Notes under the pieces: model-generated | Told to the model about the DNA's origin: nothing | Database searches by the model: none | The model's input: only the letters and a program-made list of their open reading frames with translations | NCBI GenBank assembly: GCA_947489705.1 | Contig: CANLEQ010000015.1 | Location: 1 to 64,000 of the forward strand | Source of the DNA: an uncultured Paracoccaceae bacterium | GTDB lineage: Bacteria > Pseudomonadota > Alphaproteobacteria > Rhodobacterales > Rhodobacteraceae | Reading direction: 5' to 3' | Length of the DNA stretch: 64,000 bases | Translations under genes and position numbers: made by a program | Shown: piece by piece, positions 12,918 to 59,335 of the stretch | How positions within the stretch are numbered: position 1 is the first letter of the stretch | Layout: the number at the start of each line of letters is the position of its first letter

Positions 12918-13192
12918 GGGGCGGGTCTCGTGATTCTGGGATGCCCTGCAAGATAGGCGGGGCGGCTTCAAGGCGAAAGGCGTCCCCCGAACCTGTGGAC
13001 AAGTCTGGGGGCAAGACTGTGGGACGTGCGAAAAATCGTTTGGTTCTGGCCCCTTCGTTACATTGCCCGGAAATTAGGCTCCTCCGCAAGCCATTGATAA
13101 TGCTATATTTGTTTTTACCGGACGCCAACCCATTGGGATCGTTGCGTGTTCCTTTACAAAAATGTGACGGGTGGGATAAACGGTCGCGCCGA
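12918..13192. other. A/T-rich intergenic region upstream of uvrC
   Basis: Bases about 13035-13170 are clearly A/T-richer than the rest of the window (for example AATGCTATATTTGTTTTTACC). On the minus strand TTGGCG followed after 17 bases by TAGCAT is a possible uvrC promoter, but the match is weak. No convincing small gene, SOS box (GTTC-N7-GTTC type) or RNA was found. The leader to uvrC would be about 160 bases or more. Confidence 0.35.
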
Positions 13193-13804
13193 TCAGGGCG
13201 CGGGGCGCGCAGCGCCGCCGAGCTCGAGGATCTGACCGGTGATCGCGGGCATCTCCACGAGATAGCGCAACGTCGGCAGGAGCACGCCCGGCACCGGATC
13301 GAGGCGCCTGTCCTGCGCCGTGGGATCGGTCTCTTCCGCGCCGCCCCGGATGCCCGCGCCACGCCGCGAGGGGACGATCGCGTTGACCCGGACGCGCGGT
13401 GCCATCTGATGCGCGCCGATCCTGGTCATCGCCACCAGCGACGCCGCGGCGACCGCCATTCCGGCATGACGCGGCGCCGCAATGTCCGGGACCTGGTCGA
13501 TGACGTGGATGATCTGCGCCATGGCGCGCGGCTCGCCCGTCGCATCCCGCTCCGGCGCGGGCGCCGCTGCCGCGAACCGCGCCCCGAGCGTGAGCGCCCG
13601 GTCGAGCGGTTCGATCACCGTCCGTTGCCAGGCCGCCGCATCGGGTGCGTCGAGCGTGTCGAAGGCTGCGACCGAACTCACCGTGACCAGCAGGTCCCGT
13701 CCTGCGGGATCGCCGCCGCGAAGGACATCCGCCCCCATCGCGCGCAGATCGGCGACCACCGCCTCGATCAACGCGCCGTCGTCGCCGACCACGAATGCCC
13801 GCAT
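13193..13804 (-). CDS. degenerate short-chain dehydrogenase-like protein
   Basis: 203 aa. The C-terminal half keeps the SDR framework (AQIIHVIDQ strand, VAMTRIGAHQMAPRVRVNAIVPS), most like the pteridine-reductase/FolM group. The usual catalytic Ser is replaced (VID at about 101-103). The Tyr-x3-Lys pair has no counterpart in PRHAGMAVAAASLVAM, and the N-terminal nucleotide loop is reduced to VVGDDGALI. It is therefore probably not an active oxidoreductase. Its ATG overlaps the stop of the upstream exchanger gene by one base, so it is co-translated with it. Confidence 0.7.
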   Translation of the reverse strand: MRAFVVGDDGALIEAVVADLRAMGADVLRGGDPAGRDLLVTVSSVAAFDTLDAPDAAAWQRTVIEPLDRALTLGARFAAAAPAPERDATGEPRAMAQIIHVIDQVPDIAAPRHAGMAVAAASLVAMTRIGAHQMAPRVRVNAIVPSRRGAGIRGGAEETDPTAQDRRLDPVPGVLLPTLRYLVEMPAITGQILELGGAARPAP

Positions 13805-14745
13805 CACAGCATGACCAGCCGCGCGAGGTAGAGCGCGTAGCCCGCGCAGAAGATCAGCCCCCAGACCCGCCCCATATACCAGTCGCGGAACACGAACGGC
13901 GCGAGCAGCAGCGACGCGGCCAGCATCACCCACAGGTCAAGGACAAGGAATTCGCGGTCCACCGGGATCGGCCCCACCAGCGACGCGATCCCGATGATCG
14001 CCAGCAGATTGAAGAGGTTCGAGCCGATCACGTTGCCCAGCGCCACGTCGGCCTGTTTGCGGAACGCCGCCGCGACCGTCGTCGCGAGCTCGGGCAGCGA
14101 GGTGCCCACGGCCACCAGCGTCAGGCCGATCACCGCATCCGACAGGCCGAACATCTGCGCGATCTGCGTGGCCGCGTTGATCAGCAGTTGCGCGCCGATC
14201 GGCAATCCAACCAGCCCCGCGACGAGGAAGGCGATGATCTTCCACCAGCGCATCGACGGGTCGGCGCCCTCGACCTCGGTCACGTCGGCGAGGCTCCTGC
14301 GGGTGGCGAGGCTCTCGCGTACCTGATCCCCGAGAATGAGCGCGAGCGCGCCGAGCAGGATCAGCCCGTGCCACCAGGTGAGCGGCCCGGCAAAGCTCAG
14401 CCCGATGAACAGAAGCGTGCCGAGGATCATGGTGACGAAGCTCTTGCGCGTCTCCCGGCCCTCCATCGACAACCCCACCAGCAATGCCGGAATGCCCAGC
14501 ACCAGAAGGACGTTGGCCGTGTTGGAGCCCACCACGTTGCCGAGTGCTATGCCCGGCACGTCGTCGAGCACCGCCTGCACCGAGATCAGGAGCTCGGGTG
14601 CCGAGGTGCCGAACGCCACGACCGTCAGGCTGACGATCAGTGCAGGAAGGCCCAGCCGGAGCGCCAGGTTCACGGCCCCGCGCACCAGCGCGTCGCCCGC
14701 GAAGATGAGAATGACAAGGCCGACGGCCGCCCAGACGAAGACCAT
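13804..14745 (-). CDS. calcium/sodium antiporter, CaCA family (YrbG-like)
   Basis: 313 aa, about ten membrane segments in two homologous halves. The two alpha repeats are easy to see: VVAFGTSAPELLISVQA with GNVVGSNTANVLLVLG, and VAVGTSLPELATTVAA with GNVIGSNLFNLLAIIG, carrying the ion-binding Glu/Asn residues. Exchanges Na+ (or K+/H+) for Ca2+ across the inner membrane. It abuts the small zinc-ribbon gene upstream (stop at 14746, start at 14745) and the SDR-like gene downstream, forming a leftward operon. Confidence 0.92.
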   Translation of the reverse strand: MVFVWAAVGLVILIFAGDALVRGAVNLALRLGLPALIVSLTVVAFGTSAPELLISVQAVLDDVPGIALGNVVGSNTANVLLVLGIPALLVGLSMEGRETRKSFVTMILGTLLFIGLSFAGPLTWWHGLILLGALALILGDQVRESLATRRSLADVTEVEGADPSMRWWKIIAFLVAGLVGLPIGAQLLINAATQIAQMFGLSDAVIGLTLVAVGTSLPELATTVAAAFRKQADVALGNVIGSNLFNLLAIIGIASLVGPIPVDREFLVLDLWVMLAASLLLAPFVFRDWYMGRVWGLIFCAGYALYLARLVML

Positions 14746-14910
14746 TCAGCGCTTCCCCTTGCCGCAGGAACAGGGCGCCTTGCCGATGCGATACCGGCCG
14801 CAGCCGTCGCATTTCATGGTCTGCAACTTCTTCTGCCCCGGAAACCGCAGCCGGCCCATCATGGCCAGCACCAGCATCCCGATCAGGAACAGGGTGACGA
14901 TCTTGATCAC
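14746..14910 (-). CDS. 54-residue membrane-anchored zinc-ribbon protein, GTG start
   Basis: Translating 14910 to 14746 gives 54 aa. An N-terminal membrane helix (IVTLFLIGMLVLAMMG) is followed by a basic linker and a Cys cluster C-x2-C-x10-C-x-C (KCDGCGRY then APCSCGKGKR), a small zinc-ribbon-like site. The start is GTG at 14910, just 3 bases after the stop of the S49 peptidase gene, and the end abuts the exchanger ATG, so it is tightly embedded in the operon. It is too short for usual gene finders. Role unknown; its setting suggests membrane quality control with the S49 peptidase. Confidence 0.75.
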   Translation of the reverse strand: MIKIVTLFLIGMLVLAMMGRLRFPGQKKLQTMKCDGCGRYRIGKAPCSCGKGKR

Positions 14911-14913
14911 GGG

Positions 14914-15714
14914 CTAGAGCCCGAACCGCGCGAAGGCCGCGCGATCCTCGATCCCCGAAAGCGCGTCGGCGACCACGCTCGCCCCGAACCGCGACAAAAA
15001 CGGCCGCCGCTGCTTGTAGGTGACGAACCGCGTCTTCTTGCCGAAGCGTTCCTTCATCACCGGGACGATGTGGCCGATCCCGTCGATCAGGCCCATCTCG
15101 CGCGCCCGCTCGCCGACCCAGACCTCGCCCGAGAAGAGCCGCGGATCGTCGGCGAGTTTCGGCCCCCGGCGGGCCTTCACATGGGCGATGAAGCCGTCGT
15201 GGATCTGGTCCTGAAGGTCGCGCAGACGGGCCACGTCGTCGGGGTTTTCGGGGCGGAACGGGTCGAGCATGCTCTTGGACTTGCCGGCGGTATAGACGCG
15301 CCGCTCGATGCCGTAGCGTTCGATCAGCCCGTTGAGCCCGAACCCGGCCGAGATCACGCCGATCGATCCGAGGATGGAATTCGCGTCCGCATAGATCTCG
15401 TCGGCCGCGACGGCGAGCCAATAGCCCCCCGACGCCGCGACATCCTCGACGAAGGCCACGACAGGCACGCCCGTCTCGGACGACAGGCGCCGGATCCGCG
15501 CCGCGATCAGCGACGATTGCGCGGGGCTGCCGCCGGGCGAATTGATCACCAGCGCGACCGCCCTGGGCCTGCCCCGGCGAAACGCCTTCTCGATCAGCGG
15601 GGCGAGGCCCGCATCGCTCAGCCGCACGCCGGCACCGGCCGAGGCGATGATGCCCTGGAGGCGGACGATCGCGACGACGGGGTCCTTGGCAAGGAACGGG
15701 ATCATGTGCTTCAT
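14914..15714 (-). CDS. S49 family signal-peptide-peptidase-like protease (SppA/SohB type)
   Basis: 266 aa. Short S49 form with one catalytic domain. VALVINSPGGSPAQSS is the oxyanion segment, the nucleophile Ser is in VAASGGYWLAVAAD, and the general-base Lys in YTAGKSKSMLDPF. It lacks a strong N-terminal membrane segment (MKHMIPFLAKDPVVAIVRL), so it may be cytoplasmic or peripheral. These enzymes degrade signal peptides and membrane-protein fragments. The start at 15714 is chosen because upstream residues are Arg/Pro-rich shadow. First gene of the leftward S49 / zinc-ribbon / exchanger / SDR operon. Confidence 0.88.
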   Translation of the reverse strand: MKHMIPFLAKDPVVAIVRLQGIIASAGAGVRLSDAGLAPLIEKAFRRGRPRAVALVINSPGGSPAQSSLIAARIRRLSSETGVPVVAFVEDVAASGGYWLAVAADEIYADANSILGSIGVISAGFGLNGLIERYGIERRVYTAGKSKSMLDPFRPENPDDVARLRDLQDQIHDGFIAHVKARRGPKLADDPRLFSGEVWVGERAREMGLIDGIGHIVPVMKERFGKKTRFVTYKQRRPFLSRFGASVVADALSGIEDRAAFARFGL

Positions 15715-15838
15715 GGGTCTCGATCTAGGGGCGACGGGCCCGCCCGCCAAGGCCGGAAGCGGTCGCGGCGGGAAATGAGCACGATCTTCCCGGCGCAAGC
15801 GGCGCGGGGCCGGATCGCGGCGACAAAGGCTTGGCCCC

Positions 15839-16747
15839 ATGCTCCTCATCACGATCTGGCCGATCTTCGCGCTGATCTGCCTCGGGTTCTGCCTTGCGCG
15901 CGGCGGCGTTCCGGGCGCGGGCTTCTGGCCTGCCGCCGAACGGATCAACTACGTGCTGCTCTTCCCTGCCCTGCTGGTGGCCAATCTCGCCGATGCGCCG
16001 TTGAGCGATCCGGCGCTCTTGCGGCTGGGCGGGGCGGTGACGGGCATGATCCTCGTCGCGGCCCTCGCGCTCGGGCTTGTGCGACGGATTCGGGGCACGC
16101 CGCCCGCGCGGCACGGGCCCGTCCTTCAGGGGGTGGTGCGGTTCAACACCTATCTTGGCCTCGCGATCACCGCCGGCCTCTTCGGCGACGCGGCACTCGG
16201 CCGGGCGGCCGTCCTGCTGGCCGTGGCGGTGCCGCTCGTCAACGTGCTGTCGGTGCTGGCGCTGACCGGCGGGGGCGCAGGTCGCGGCCCCTGGGCGCTG
16301 ATCCGGCCGATCCTCACCAATCCGCTGATCCTGGCCTGCGCGCTCGGGATCGCCATTTGCCTGACGGGCCTCGGCCTGCCCTACGGGCTCGAGAGCTTCC
16401 TGGGCTTTCTCGCGCAGGCGAGCCTGCCGCTCGGCCTGCTCTGCGTGGGGGCGGCGCTCAGGCCGCGCGCGCTCGGGCTCGAAGTGGTGACGCTGGCCGG
16501 GATCTCGGCCCTGCGCCTTCTGGCCATGCCCCTGCTCGCGGCGCTCATTGCGCGGCTCTTCGCGCTCGGGCCGCACGATGCGGCGATCCTGGTGATCTTC
16601 GCCGCGATCCCGACCGCGCCCACCGCCTATGTCCTGACGCAGCAGCTCAAGGGAGACGGCAGGCTGATGGCGGGCCTCGTCACGGCCCAGACGGTGGCGG
16701 CGCTTGCCACGATCCCGTTCGTGCTCGGGATGCTCGGCATCGGCTGA
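15839..16747 (+). CDS. AEC family transporter (auxin efflux carrier-like)
   Basis: 302 aa with about ten membrane segments and the AEC pattern (LLITIWPIFALICLGFCLARGG; N-half NYVLLFPALLVANLA; C-half FAAIPTAPTAYVLTQQLKGD). AEC proteins export or import organic acids such as malate or malonate; the substrate cannot be told here. It is rightward, alone, and diverges from the S49 gene across 124 bp. Confidence 0.9.
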   Translation: MLLITIWPIFALICLGFCLARGGVPGAGFWPAAERINYVLLFPALLVANLADAPLSDPALLRLGGAVTGMILVAALALGLVRRIRGTPPARHGPVLQGVVRFNTYLGLAITAGLFGDAALGRAAVLLAVAVPLVNVLSVLALTGGGAGRGPWALIRPILTNPLILACALGIAICLTGLGLPYGLESFLGFLAQASLPLGLLCVGAALRPRALGLEVVTLAGISALRLLAMPLLAALIARLFALGPHDAAILVIFAAIPTAPTAYVLTQQLKGDGRLMAGLVTAQTVAALATIPFVLGMLGIG

Positions 16748-16750
16748 GGA

Positions 16751-17512
16751 TCAGTCGCGGATGCGCCAGCCGGTCTTGAAGATCCAGCCGATCGTGGCGA
16801 TGCAGAGGCCCGAGAATCCGACGATCGCCAGCAGGCTGATCAGCACCGGCACGTCGGCAAGCCCGTAGAACGACCAGCGGAACCCCGACACCAGATACAC
16901 GACCGGGTTGAGATAGGTCACGGCCTGCCACGCATCGGGCAGCATCGAAACCGAATAGAACGCCCCGCCCAGAAAGATCAGCGGTTGCAGCACCAGAAGC
17001 GGCACCAGCTGCAACTGCTCGAAATTGCGCGCCCAGATGCCGATGATGAACCCCAGCAGGCTGAACGACAGGCAGGTCAGCATCAAGAACGCCATCATCC
17101 AGACCGGATGCCGGATCTCGAGATCGACGAAGAAGAACGCGGTGACGAGGATGATGAGCCCGATCGCGAAGGATTTCGTCGCCGCGGCCAGCACGTATCC
17201 GGCAGTGATCTCGGCGAAGGAGGCGGGCGCGGACAGAAGCTCGTAGATCGTACCGATGAATTTCGGAAAGTAGATCCCGAAGGCCGCGTTGGTCACCGAT
17301 TGCGTGAGCACCGTCAGCATGATGAGCCCCGGCACGATGAACGCGCCGTAGCTCACGCCCTCGACCTGGTCGATCCGGCTGCCGATGGCGGCGCCGAAAA
17401 CCACGAAATAGAGCGAGGTCGACATGACGGGGGCCACCACCGATTGCAGCAGCGTGCGGAAGGTCCGCTTCATCTCGAAGACGTAGATGGCCTGGATGGC
17501 GGTAAGGTTCAT
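16751..17512 (-). CDS. ABC-2 type transporter permease
   Basis: 253 aa, six membrane segments. Pattern of YadH/NodJ-type permeases ([54 protein letters not shown]). Works with the upstream ATPase (ATGA overlap at 17509-17512) to export an unidentified small molecule or lipid, or a drug. Converges on the AEC gene with 3 bases between. Confidence 0.92.
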
Positions 17513-18438
17513 CGCGCGTCTCCCTGCGTCAGATCCACGAAGATGTCCTCGAGGCTCGATTGTTCGGTCCGCACGTCGCGCATCTGAAGCCCCGCGGCCT
17601 GGAGGTCGTTCAAGAGCTTGGTGATGCCCGTCCGGTCGCGGCGGCTGTCGTAGTGATAGACGATCTCCGAGCCGTCCCGCCCGACGCTCAGGTCGTAGCC
17701 CGAAAGCGCCTCGGGCACCTTCTCCACATTGGTCGAAAGCTCGATGACGAGCTGCTTGCGGCCCAGTTCGGCCATCAGCTCGGCCTTCTCGCGCACCAGC
17801 CGGATCTCGCCGCCGGCCATGATGCCGATCCGGTCGGCCATGAGCTCCGCTTCCTCGATGTAATGCGTGGTGAGGATGATGGTCACGCCGTGCGATTTGA
17901 GATCGCGCATCGTCTCCCACATCTCGCGGCGCAGCTCGACATCGACACCTGCGGTGGGCTCGTCGAGGAACAGCACCCGCGGCTCGTGGGCCAGCGCCTT
18001 GGCGATCAGCACCCGGCGCTTCATGCCCCCCGACAATTCCTTGGTCTGCGCGTCGCGCTTGTCCCAAAGGCTGAGCTGGCGCAGGACGCGTTCGATATAG
18101 GCGTCGTCGCGGCCTTTGCCGAAGAGCCCGCGCGAGAACATCACCGTGTTCATCACCGTCTCGAACGGCTCGAGATTGATCTCCTGCGGGACGAGCCCGA
18201 TCAGGGCGCGCGCCGCGCGGTATTCGCCGATCGTGTCGTGGCCGCCGACGCTGACCTTGCCCGAAGTGGCGGTGGTGATGCCGCAGATGATCGAGATGAG
18301 CGTCGTCTTGCCGGCCCCGTTCGGCCCGAGGAGCGCCAGGACCTCGCCGTCGCGGATGTCGAGCGACACGTCCTTGAGCGCGCGGAAACCGCCGTCGTAG
18401 GTCTTGTTCAGAGTCTGGACGGAGACGATCGATGACAT
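17509..18438 (-). CDS. ABC transporter ATP-binding protein (YadG/NodI type)
   Basis: 309 aa. Walker [15 protein letters not shown], signature [15 protein letters not shown], Walker [13 protein letters not shown], and H-loop [10 protein letters not shown], followed by a C-terminal extension of about 90 residues ending in [12 protein letters not shown], typical of two-gene exporters (DrrA/NodI/YadG). Start ATG 18438 gives [17 protein letters not shown]. Overlaps the permease by four bases. Confidence 0.94.
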
Positions 18439-18572: not shown

Positions 18573-19778
18573 ATGGAATGCGAGGCATTGGTGATAGGCG
18601 GCGGCCCGGCGGGCCTGATGGCGGCGGAAACGCTGGCAAGAGCGGGGTTTCCCCCGCTGCTGGCCGAGGCGATGCCGACCTTCGGTCGCAAGTTCCTGAT
18701 GGCCGGCAGGTCCGGCCTCAACCTCACGAAGGACGCCGGACCTGCGGATTTCGATCGGGCCTATGGCGACGGGGCGGGCCCGGTGCCGGATATCGTGCGC
18801 GGTTTCGACCAGCAGGCCGTGCGCCGCTGGGCCGAAGGGCTCGGGTCCGAGCTCTTCGTGGGCTCCACGGGGCGGGTCTTTCCGACCGCGATGAAGGCCT
18901 CGCCGCTCCTGCGCGCCTGGACCGGGCGGCTCGGGGATCTGGGCGTCCGGCTCCGGACCCGCTGGCGCTGGACCGGGATCGAGACAAGCGGCAAATGTTT
19001 CGCGCGCGAAACATTTCGCGCGGGGTTCACCTTCGAGACGCCCGATGGCGCCGTGACGCTGCGCCCGCGGATCTGCGTTCTGGCGCTCGGCGGTGCGTCG
19101 TGGCGGCGGCTCGGCTCTGACGGGGCATGGGTGCCGTGGCTGCGCGAGCTTGGTGTCGCGGTCGACGATTTCGCCCCCGCCAATGCCGGGCTCGACGTCG
19201 ACTGGTCTGCGCATATGGAGCCTTTGCTGGGCGTCCCCGTGAAGGGCGCGGCGCTGCTCGCAGGCGGCGGGACGCATCGGGGCGAGTTCGTGATCTCGCG
19301 CCGGGGCCTCGAAGGCGGCGGGATCTATGCCGCGAGTCGCGCAGTGCGCGAGGGTGCTGCGCTCCATCTCGATCTGGTGCCCGACCGGGATGTCGGGAAC
19401 GTCGCCGCGCGCCTGGCATCCGCCCGCGGATCGGTGTCGAACCGGCTTCGCAAGGGCCTGCGGCTCGACCCCGCGCGGCTGGCGTTGCTGATGGAATTCG
19501 GCCGCCCGCTGCCCGCGGGACGGGATCTCGCACGCCTCGTCAAGCACCTTCCCGTGCCGCATCGCGGCTTGCGCCCGCTCGACGAGGCGATCTCGTCGGC
19601 GGGCGGCATTGCATGGGACGCGCTCGACCCGGATCTGCAGCTGAAGGCGCTGCCCGGGGTTTTCGCCGCGGGCGAGATGCTGGGCTGGGAGGCGCCGACG
19701 GGCGGCTACCTGCTGACGGCCTGCCTTGCGACCGGGCGGCATGCGGGGCACGCGGCCGTTCGTCTTCTCGGAGACTGA
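18573..19778 (+). CDS. HI0933-like FAD-dependent flavoprotein (TIGR03862 type)
   Basis: 401 aa. N-terminal FAD-binding fold [19 protein letters not shown], then the family stretch [34 protein letters not shown], and the C-terminal FAD loop [22 protein letters not shown]. The reaction of the family is not established; members are soluble flavoproteins related to BaiN/YhiN. Residues 141-148 (KCFARETF) are encoded by a perfect 24-bp palindrome at 18993-19016 using codons rare in this genome. ATG at 18573 is adopted because it begins directly at the FAD fold. It stands 46 bp before zapE. Confidence 0.88.
18993..19016. repeat. perfect 24-bp palindrome in coding DNA
   Basis: Bases 18993-19016 are self-complementary over all 24 positions, with TGTTTC and GAAACA half-sites around a GCGCGC core and AAA/TTT at the ends. 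It starts exactly at a codon boundary and reads K-C-F-A-R-E-T-F. The half-sites equal those of the ParB site parS, but the core is 6 bp instead of 4, so it is not a canonical parS. Confidence 0.9.
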
Positions 19779-57818: not shown

Positions 57819-59335
57819 CGGCGGATCAGGCTCCGCCCCGTCATCTCGTCGGGTTGCGGGATCTGCATCAGATCGAGAAGCGTGGGCGCCAGATCGGCGA
57901 GACGCCCATCGGCAAGCGTCGCGCCCGTCGGACCGCCGACGAGGATCACCGGGACGAGGTTCAGGGTATGCGAGGTATGCGGGCCACCGGTTTCCGGATC
58001 GACCATGACCTCGCAATTGCCGTGATCGGCGGTGACGATCATCGCGCCGCCGGCTTTCTCCAGCGCATCGAGCACGCGGCCAAGGCCCCGGTCCACCGCC
58101 TCGCAGGCCGCGATCGCCGCATCGAGATCGCCGGTATGGCCGACCATGTCGGGATTGGCATAGTTGCACACGATCAGGTCAAAGCCGGCCTCGATCGCCG
58201 CGACGAAGCGGTCGGAGACTTCGACGGACGACATCTCCGGCTGCAGGTCGTAGGTGGCGACGCCGGGCGATTTCGGCATCGCGCGTTCTTCGCCCTCCTC
58301 CGGGTTTTCCTTGCCGCCGTTGAGAAAGAACGTGACGTGGGGGTATTTCTCGGTCTCGGCCACGCGGAACTGACGAAGACCCTGTTTGGCCACCCATTCG
58401 CCGAGCGTGTTGACGAGCTTGCGCTTGGGAAAGACGGTTTCGAACCAGTCGTTGTGGGATCGGGAATATTCGACCATCCCGAGCCGCGCGGCGAATTGCG
58501 GCCGATCGGGGGTATCGAACCCGCAGAAATCCGGATCGCCTAGGGCCGAGAGGATCTCGCGTGCGCGATCCGCCCGGAAGTTCAAGCAGAAGACGCCATC
58601 CTTGGCCTGCATGCCGTCGTAATCCCCGATCACCGTCGCGGGGATGAACTCGTCCGTCGTATCGTTTGCATAGGCCTGATCGACGGCGGCACGCGCGGTG
58701 GGGGCCCGTTCGCCCTCGGCGCGGACCATGGCGGCATAGGCCGTGGATACCCGCGCCCAGCGATTGTCGCGGTCCATCGCATAGTATCGCCCGATCACCG
58801 TGCCGATCCGTGCATTTAGCGGCAGGCGATCCTCGAGCGCATCGATGAAACCGCGTGCGGAATCGGGCGCGACGTCGCGCCCGTCGGTGATCGCATGGAC
58901 CACGACCGGCACGCCGGCATCGGTGATGATCCGGGCGGCTGCCACGATGTGGTCGATATGGCCATGGACGCCGCCGTCGGAGACCACGCCCATGAGATGC
59001 GCCGCACCGCCAGAAGCCGACAGGTCCGAAACGAAGCCGCGAAGCGCCGCGTTCTCGGCCAGACTTCCATCCTCGATCGCCAGGTCGATCTGGCCGAGAT
59101 CCATGGCCACCACCCGACCTGCGCCGATATTCGTGTGTCCGACCTCGGAATTGCCCATCTGGCCCTTGGGAAGGCCGACATCGGGCCCGTGCGTGATCAG
59201 CCGGGCCGCGGGTCCTGCGTCGCGGATCCGGTCGAAATTCGGGGTGTCGGCAAGCGCCGGCGCATTCGCGTCGGTATCCTCGCGCGCGCCCCATCCGTCG
59301 AGAATGCAAAGAACGACAGGCTTCGGTGCGGACAT
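57815..59335 (-). CDS. gpmI: 2,3-bisphosphoglycerate-independent phosphoglycerate mutase
   Basis: 506 aa alkaline-phosphatase fold. VVLCILDGWG (metal Asp), the catalytic Ser in QMGNSEVGHTNIGAGR, NYANPDMVGHTGD and VTADHGNCEVM are diagnostic. Interconverts 3- and 2-phosphoglycerate in glycolysis, Mn-dependent. Follows rlmH by 66 bases. Confidence 0.97.
   Translation of the reverse strand: MSAPKPVVLCILDGWGAREDTDANAPALADTPNFDRIRDAGPAARLITHGPDVGLPKGQMGNSEVGHTNIGAGRVVAMDLGQIDLAIEDGSLAENAALRGFVSDLSASGGAAHLMGVVSDGGVHGHIDHIVAAARIITDAGVPVVVHAITDGRDVAPDSARGFIDALEDRLPLNARIGTVIGRYYAMDRDNRWARVSTAYAAMVRAEGERAPTARAAVDQAYANDTTDEFIPATVIGDYDGMQAKDGVFCLNFRADRAREILSALGDPDFCGFDTPDRPQFAARLGMVEYSRSHNDWFETVFPKRKLVNTLGEWVAKQGLRQFRVAETEKYPHVTFFLNGGKENPEEGEERAMPKSPGVATYDLQPEMSSVEVSDRFVAAIEAGFDLIVCNYANPDMVGHTGDLDAAIAACEAVDRGLGRVLDALEKAGGAMIVTADHGNCEVMVDPETGGPHTSHTLNLVPVILVGGPTGATLADGRLADLAPTLLDLMQIPQPDEMTGRSLIRR

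Follow-up and report, generated by a model that had tools for sequence, protein, structure and literature searches.

Dispersed copies of a RepA-type plasmid parS palindrome on Rhodobacteraceae chromosomes and the plasmid-type ParB that may act on them

A palindrome within a flavoprotein gene and its copies in the genome

Why does a flavoprotein gene of an uncultured Paracoccaceae bacterium carry a long, perfectly self-complementary sequence within its reading frame? The sequence, AAATGTTTCGCGCGCGAAACATTT, occupies positions 18993–19016 of the window, by which we mean the whole analyzed stretch of 64,000 nucleotides. An earlier note, made from the letters of the window, had described it as a perfect 24-bp palindrome lying in frame in such a gene, and this description was confirmed: the host gene (18573–19778, + strand; the open frame has its first ATG at 18432) encodes an HI0933-like flavoprotein and matches PF03486 with an E-value of 2.6e-54. 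It is the longest palindrome in the window, the next longest being 20 bp; a second long perfect palindrome, CGGGCGCGACGTCGCGCCCG, of 20 bp, was found at 58864–58883. The 24-bp length by itself is unusual to a moderate degree (when the window was simulated 60 times with a third-order Markov model, one simulation gave a palindrome of 24 bp or more) and is indecisive. Decisive is the recurrence of the sequence across the genome.

As judged from the protein alignment, the site occupies a lineage-specific insertion within a variable loop of the flavoprotein, because the encoded peptide KCFARETF is missing in each of the 13 further members of the genus that were compared, where 11–16 alignment columns are empty at that loop (G005 was poorly aligned). 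The insertion comprises about 12 codons (18987–19022, + strand; the edges are uncertain by a few codons). Protein-level constraint on KCFARETF was thus ruled out, the peptide not being conserved among the orthologous flavoproteins, and the idea of a dispersed palindrome inserted in a tolerant loop, one of those raised in the note, gained support from both the variable loop and the many copies described below. The codons AAA, TGT, ACA, and TTT are indeed uncommon, with shares of 13%, 12%, 2.5%, and 11%, respectively, among their synonyms in the window; they occur here because the DNA word dictates them. The exact fit of the palindrome to eight codons, on which the note had also remarked, is present and carries no meaning: the coding copies elsewhere in the genome occupy all three reading frames (4, 2, and 2 of the 8 exact copies called coding), and the fit is therefore a coincidence.

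The genome of the window (hereafter G000) consists of 4,335,587 bases in 156 contigs. The 18-bp core of the palindrome, TGTTTCGCGCGCGAAACA (18996–19013; no strand is assigned to it or to the full palindrome), occurs there in 28 exact copies, one of which is that in the window, and in 44, 51, and 58 copies at up to one, two, and three mismatches, respectively. For a reversed control pattern, the corresponding numbers at up to one, two, and three mismatches are 0, 0, and 1, which rules out a chance palindrome. The exact sites are spread over 19 contigs, none being on contig C14, and the consensus in G000 is AA-core-T. The positions of 50 of the 58 copies were classified as coding or intergenic. 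The exact copies are mostly intergenic (20 of the 28; 8 are coding), against 89% of the window called coding. The copies with one or two mismatches are less certain, since most of them are coding (16 of the 22; 6 are intergenic). The genes around the 20 intergenic exact copies are convergent in 7 cases, co-directional in 8, divergent in 3, and unclassified in 2. The gene calls come from a custom crude caller based on GC3 bias, by which some parB frames (L068, L297, L302, L306, and L308) were overlooked or lengthened. Finally, the spacing of the G000 sites at up to one mismatch (21 gaps) is more regular than expected at random (CV, 0.49 vs 0.84; P = 0.0014), and the smallest gap between sites is 21 kb (P = 0.0002).

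Relation of the word to RepA-type plasmids

The half-sites of the palindrome equal those of parS, as the note had stated. The chromosome's own parS is nonetheless a different 16-mer, TGTTTCACGTGAAACA, and a variant of the chromosomal parS was thus excluded. In G000, this 16-mer has two copies (G000:C1:301234 and 303124), each with one mismatch, and the chromosomal parB lies on the same contig. As a side observation on the two genomes of the genus that carry the dispersed sites, the chromosomal parS is mismatched in both G000 copies and in one of the two copies of the sister species G007 (G007:C1:2663441), unlike G001, G003, and G006, where pairs of it (two copies less than 2 kb apart) are exact.

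A clue was provided by the relatives with few copies. In these, the sites group on one contig, where a parA–parB pair and an initiator of replication adjoin them. One example is G006 (L066), in which the sites at 12989 and 14012 flank parB (13018–13992), and parA (14032–15396) and an RPA replicase gene (15772–16776) adjoin parB and its sites. Sites close to parB were also found in G002, G004, G011, G014, G015, G018, G120, G161, G321, G359, G368, and G399, and polysaccharide genes are frequently located near the parB-linked sites. G305 is an exception, with no site in the 19 kb around its ParB match. When the G006 ParB was used as a tblastn query, 140 plasmid records were obtained at E ≤ 1e-40, 58 of them from Phaeobacter. 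In Phaeobacter inhibens pPGA1_65, TGTTTCGCGTGCGAAACA is located about 1.5 kb from parB, and in Roseobacter denitrificans pTB2 the related words AGTTTCGCATGCGAAACT and ACTTTCGCATGCGAAACG are present at parB. The replicase family of the RepA-type plasmids is RPA (PF10134), and these are polysaccharide/rhamnose plasmids of Rhodobacteraceae. Because the word flanks the parA–parB pair of RPA plasmids, the palindrome is very probably a parS-type site, namely the centromere, of RepA-type plasmids; chromosomal sites of this kind are written TGTTTCGCRYGCGAAACA. About 44–58 parS copies are present in G000. Of the three options listed in the note, two hold, the dispersed palindrome and the ParB-like site, the latter with the amendment that the cognate protein would be the plasmid-type ParB of RPA replicons and not the chromosomal ParB; a methylation site or a nucleoid factor is not needed for explaining the data.

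The system described here thus has the ParB family, the RPA replicase, the polysaccharide cargo, and the parS word beside parB in common with the parABS of the RepA-I plasmids (pPGA1_65 and pTB2). The difference is that most copies here occur genome-wide and away from parB, and that in G000 none is near parB.

ParB and the sites in G000, its sister species, and the family

The G000 orthologue of this ParB is encoded on contig C14 (L144 12717–13661), next to ParA and RPA. It is 54% identical to the G006 plasmid ParB over 266 residues (55–320), gives no Pfam match at 1e-3, is full length, and keeps the residues that are invariant among 19 aligned ParBs (an alignment with manually assigned starts, without L306, L308, and others). 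Its structural model (pLDDT 83) matches KorB (5e-7) and Noc (1e-6) in Foldseek, with Z-scores of 11.3 for ParB, 10.7 for KorB, and 9.9 for Noc. The protein is thus predicted to have the ParB/KorB/Noc fold, with a ParB N-terminal domain and a helix-turn-helix domain. Residues 17–32 of the model have pLDDT values below 50, and no helix was assigned in residues 1–33, at the N-terminus, where Noc has its membrane-targeting helix. The putative pairing of this ParB with the G000 sites rests on homology and conserved motifs; G000 has further ParB-like genes (10 ParB_N matches). The site was absent from every G000 region inspected along with the C14 parB region.

C14 has two further features. One is that the signature lysine of its ParA is lost: the motif reads ASGVGKT instead of KGGVGK[TS], the latter being present in 20 of the 22 aligned ParAs, with G000 and G007 (VASTGKT) as the exceptions. 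Another is that C14 is a composite plasmid with two partition systems, the second being a RepABC-type RepAB pair with three TTGTACCGCGGTACAA palindromes (L144 13677–13791). The TTGTACCGCGGTACAA word likewise occurs three times on G007:C5. On G000:C6, four CTTATCCGCGGATAAG palindromes (L135 7907, 9068, 9399, and 10481) surround another parAB pair, and CTTATCCGCGGATAAG is apparently another parS word.

G007 allows a comparison of the sites under different states of parB. It carries 24 copies at up to two mismatches, 21 of them on the 2.95-Mb contig C1, and the tblastn search found its parB on C5 as a remnant with two stops and with much of the helix-turn-helix gone. We compared 20 of the 21 chromosomal sites, found at the limit of two mismatches, with G000. 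Four are clearly co-located with G000 sites (L312/L031, L314/L061, L320/L039, and L324/L027) and two probably so (L328/L024 and L325/L028). Two others lie in matched surroundings where G000 has no site among the matches listed, one of these being seen directly in the window, and the remaining 12 showed no convincing synteny in the G000 loci compared. At the six shared places, G000 is exact in five, and G007 has one or two mismatches at each (9 in 108 positions). Under neutral change of 8–10% per lineage, the probability of five exact sites among six is roughly 0.0004–0.003, a value to be read with the facts that two of the sites are coding, that two are only probable pairs, and that the G007 search was limited to two mismatches. 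Such an outcome is unlikely in the absence of selection. Read plainly, the sites persist alongside an intact parB and drift alongside a broken one.

The association between the site and ParB was also examined among 394 Rhodobacteraceae genomes, a sample outside which G007 lies. Both were found in 85 genomes, the site only in 16, ParB only in 33, and neither in 260 (Fisher p = 6e-42, uncorrected for relatedness; site at up to one mismatch, ParB at E ≤ 1e-45). The site is thus present in 101 genomes and ParB in 118; the control pattern matches 2 genomes. The 16 of 101 site-bearing genomes that lack ParB and the 33 of 118 ParB-bearing genomes that lack the site at up to one mismatch count against the reading that ParB serves the chromosome. 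Eight or more copies occur in 16 of the 394 genomes, and ParB was found in 14 of these, the exceptions being G307 and G387 (77% complete). These two exceptions, together with the exact match of the copies to the plasmid centromere, would suit a decoy, in which chromosomal parS titrates the ParB brought in by plasmids of the same group and thereby acts as an incompatibility barrier. We consider such a barrier highly improbable, as most of the many-copy genomes have ParB and, where examined, a plasmid with the same core.

The correspondence between plasmid and chromosome extends to the two central bases of the site, which are GC, AC/GT, or AT. The plasmid site has AC twice in both G177 and G103, and so do all of their chromosomal sites (10 of 10 and 11 of 11, respectively). 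In G064, the plasmid has AT, and the 17 chromosomal sites comprise 7 AT, 5 AC, 4 GC, and 1 other. In G399, the plasmid has GC and AC, four large contigs carry 11 GC and 2 AC, and two more, unassigned GC copies lie on C18 and C19. G044 has five GC sites at parB and 4 GC and 1 AC elsewhere. The chromosomal core bases therefore track the parS of the resident plasmid in four of the five genomes and partly in the fifth (chi-square 52, p = 1.5e-10 for the core-class table, in which sites within one genome are not independent and AC and AT copies were disfavored by the GC-core search pattern).

This sharing of one parS variant by plasmid and chromosome would also be expected if the chromosomal sites were anchors, bridged by plasmid-bound ParB, on which the plasmid rides the nucleoid, and coverage of the whole chromosome would supply such anchors to each daughter. 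However, the 17.6 kb around the C14 parB contain no site at up to three mismatches, and the matches listed place a single site on that contig, about 61 kb from parB and with two mismatches; moreover, chromosomal copies are few or absent in most of the genomes with ParB. We therefore regard hitch-hiking of this kind as unlikely.

The flanking sequences bear on another possibility, namely that a small palindromic element containing parS multiplies selfishly in intergenic DNA, like a REP, with ParB having no chromosomal function. Three kinds of flank were found. One is an element of about 100 bp in G064 that is common to the plasmid copy and 15 of the 17 chromosomal copies (the flank consensus excludes L378 and L380). 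Another is a pair of arms, AGGTCMG...CKGACC, which flank the core in Marivita, Leisingera, Tritonibacter, and others; at least one arm was found at 62 of 139 sites, compared with 59 of 2,340 random positions. Both favor such spread, as do the location of the window's site within an insertion and the patchy distribution of the site over genera. The last is that of G000 and G007, where conservation is limited to the core and its nearest bases (AA-core-T). This restriction, the even spacing in G000, and the exact sites with intact parB in G000 against mutated sites with broken parB in G007 all speak against selfish spread, which we consider rather unlikely as the general explanation; the copies in G064 and in the arm-bearing genera could result from simple spread of an element. 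REP-type elements are, like the present sites, intergenic, palindromic, and multi-copy; they would further have conserved flanks and be spread by their own enzyme. Conserved flanks were observed in G064 and arms in several genera, with neither in G000. The present sites differ from REP-type elements in that the core is constant across genera and linked to the presence of parB. As for dyad symmetry of the flanks, 5 of 25 offsets (1, 5, 13, 14, and 15) gave shuffle p < 0.05 in G000, scattered hits were obtained in G007 and G064, and none in G103 and G177; we make no claim of a longer conserved hairpin.

Distribution on the chromosome and proposed function

Site positions were examined in G000, G007, G044, G064, G103, G177, and G399, and the other many-copy genomes were surveyed by counts or first places. 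Among the latter is Leisingera aquimarina DSM 24565, with the exact core at least twice (L154 and L234) on its chromosome of 4,250,010 bp; this strain has a RepA-I plasmid (PMC3910692). In G044, 5 of the 10 sites are grouped at parB, within an RPA–parA–parB–parS module with five parS copies on contig C1 (L295 9002–13214), about 90 kb from the chromosomal parS. As this contig of 664 kb carries the chromosomal parS, the module is apparently an integrated plasmid module. The parS word (RY pattern) was also seen in eight viral-contig stretches (L344–L351), which may be phages or misassigned plasmids, and at the center of a 6,582-bp perfect inverted repeat (L236, contig MDLF01000102.1), probably an assembly artefact or inversion, which was kept out of the analysis.

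In G103, G177, G064, and G399, 39 of the 40 copies examined are intergenic, lying between convergent genes in 13 cases, co-directional genes in 19, and divergent genes in 6, with 1 unclassified. The 59 sites on the four chromosomes of G007, G064, G103, and G177, whose origins were placed by the chromosomal parS, are uniformly distributed from origin to terminus (KS p = 0.53; 15, 9, 17, and 18 sites in successive quartiles), and clustering at the terminus was thereby ruled out. The spacing in the other four genomes leans toward evenness (P for the CV of 0.06, 0.11, 0.17, and 0.25) and is significant in G000 only; the P value for the smallest gap is 0.025 in G007 and 0.08–0.43 in the remaining three.

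The copies located between convergent genes raise the question of whether the palindromes are operators or bidirectional terminators. Global gene regulation by the plasmid ParB KorB (PMC7022226) and the ParB-type regulator VirB (PMC10676424) would be precedents. We consider regulation or termination extremely improbable. The excess of convergent over divergent gaps (7 vs 3 for the exact G000 copies and 13 vs 6 elsewhere) is not promoter-like, 8 exact G000 copies were called coding, and the core is fixed in its sequence and not merely in its pairing. In addition, no Rfam family was found at the gathering thresholds in the site loci examined (4 + 11), on which ground the palindrome was not taken as part of an RNA family.

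A second precedent is Noc of Firmicutes, a ParB paralogue with short palindromic sites of 16 bp scattered over the chromosome (PMC8429893). The C14 ParB model matches Noc structures, and the likeness thus comprises the predicted ParB fold and the scattered sites; the protein here is, however, of plasmid type, and its sites are those of a plasmid centromere. If ParB on the dispersed sites kept the division machinery off the nucleoid, as in nucleoid occlusion, depletion near the terminus would be anticipated, since Noc sites avoid the terminus. No such depletion is seen in the quartile counts (15, 9, 17, and 18), and the presence of sites up to the terminus is hard to reconcile with classical nucleoid occlusion. 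Furthermore, the C14 ParB scores 18.8 bits with the Noc family model TIGR04285, whose cut-off is 315. A Noc-like role is therefore very unlikely.

As the overall best explanation, we favor dispersed plasmid parS sites bound by a plasmid-type ParB on the chromosome, a reading whose chances of being right appear to be about even. That a plasmid-type ParB acts on the chromosome-wide sites seems somewhat probable. An organizing or tethering mechanism in particular may be proposed with clearly less than even confidence; it fits better than regulation because of the origin-to-terminus coverage, the promoter-neutral intergenic placement, and the even spacing in G000. The ParB clamp loads on palindromic parS and then slides (PMC8429893). 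In the mechanism that we envisage, the plasmid-type ParB, encoded on C14 in G000, would act like ParB, KorB, and Noc and load as a clamp at the chromosomal sites; from origin to terminus, ParB-coated islands would form at intervals of a few tens of kilobases. Through ParB–ParB bridging and ParA, these islands may join plasmid and nucleoid, so that the partition machinery would be spread over the whole chromosome. In G000, a chromosomal job may be what remains for ParB, because a RepABC-type pair has been gained, no parS is near parB, and the ParA lysine has been lost.

Somewhat short of even confidence, we suggest that the role of a chromosome-wide organizer has fallen, probably on more than one occasion, to a plasmid partition protein, and that in the lineage of the window this protein serves the chromosome alone and has left plasmid partition. 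It would then be an alphaproteobacterial counterpart of Noc or a second centromere system. The mostly coding position of the G000 copies with one or two mismatches and the restriction of significant spacing to G000 count against an organizer.

Plasmid centromeres are expected on their own plasmid, and the compatibility rules assume so. In the literature searched, mostly without subscription papers, we found no account of a plasmid parS scattered over host chromosomes and no match to the letters of the word. Related systems differ in several respects. In Pseudomonas aeruginosa, one ParB likewise has many chromosomal sites with a proposed role in topology (PMC7022226); there, they are hundreds of heptamer half-sites of the chromosomal ParB, whereas here they are tens of full palindromes of a plasmid-type ParB. 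RepABC plasmids also have palindromic centromeres, in which single-base changes separate compatibility groups (PMC5613091), but their parS very rarely lies outside the repABC operon or its vicinity (PMC9040568) and is not on the chromosome as here. In Streptomyces, no chromosomal binding was observed for two plasmid ParBs (PMC13245405), and the binding of plasmid ParB to the chromosome is therefore not the rule.

A plasmid of the RepA type considered here is carried by Phaeobacter inhibens DSM 17395. Its curing has reportedly been published by Frank et al. in 2015, which makes the question of a chromosomal role for ParB directly testable. If the proposal is true, host and plasmid would have one segregation network in common where the chromosome carries from 8 to about 50 centromeres that match. 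This would bear on plasmid stability, on incompatibility, on the taming of plasmids into chromids, and on the origin of ParB paralogues such as Noc.
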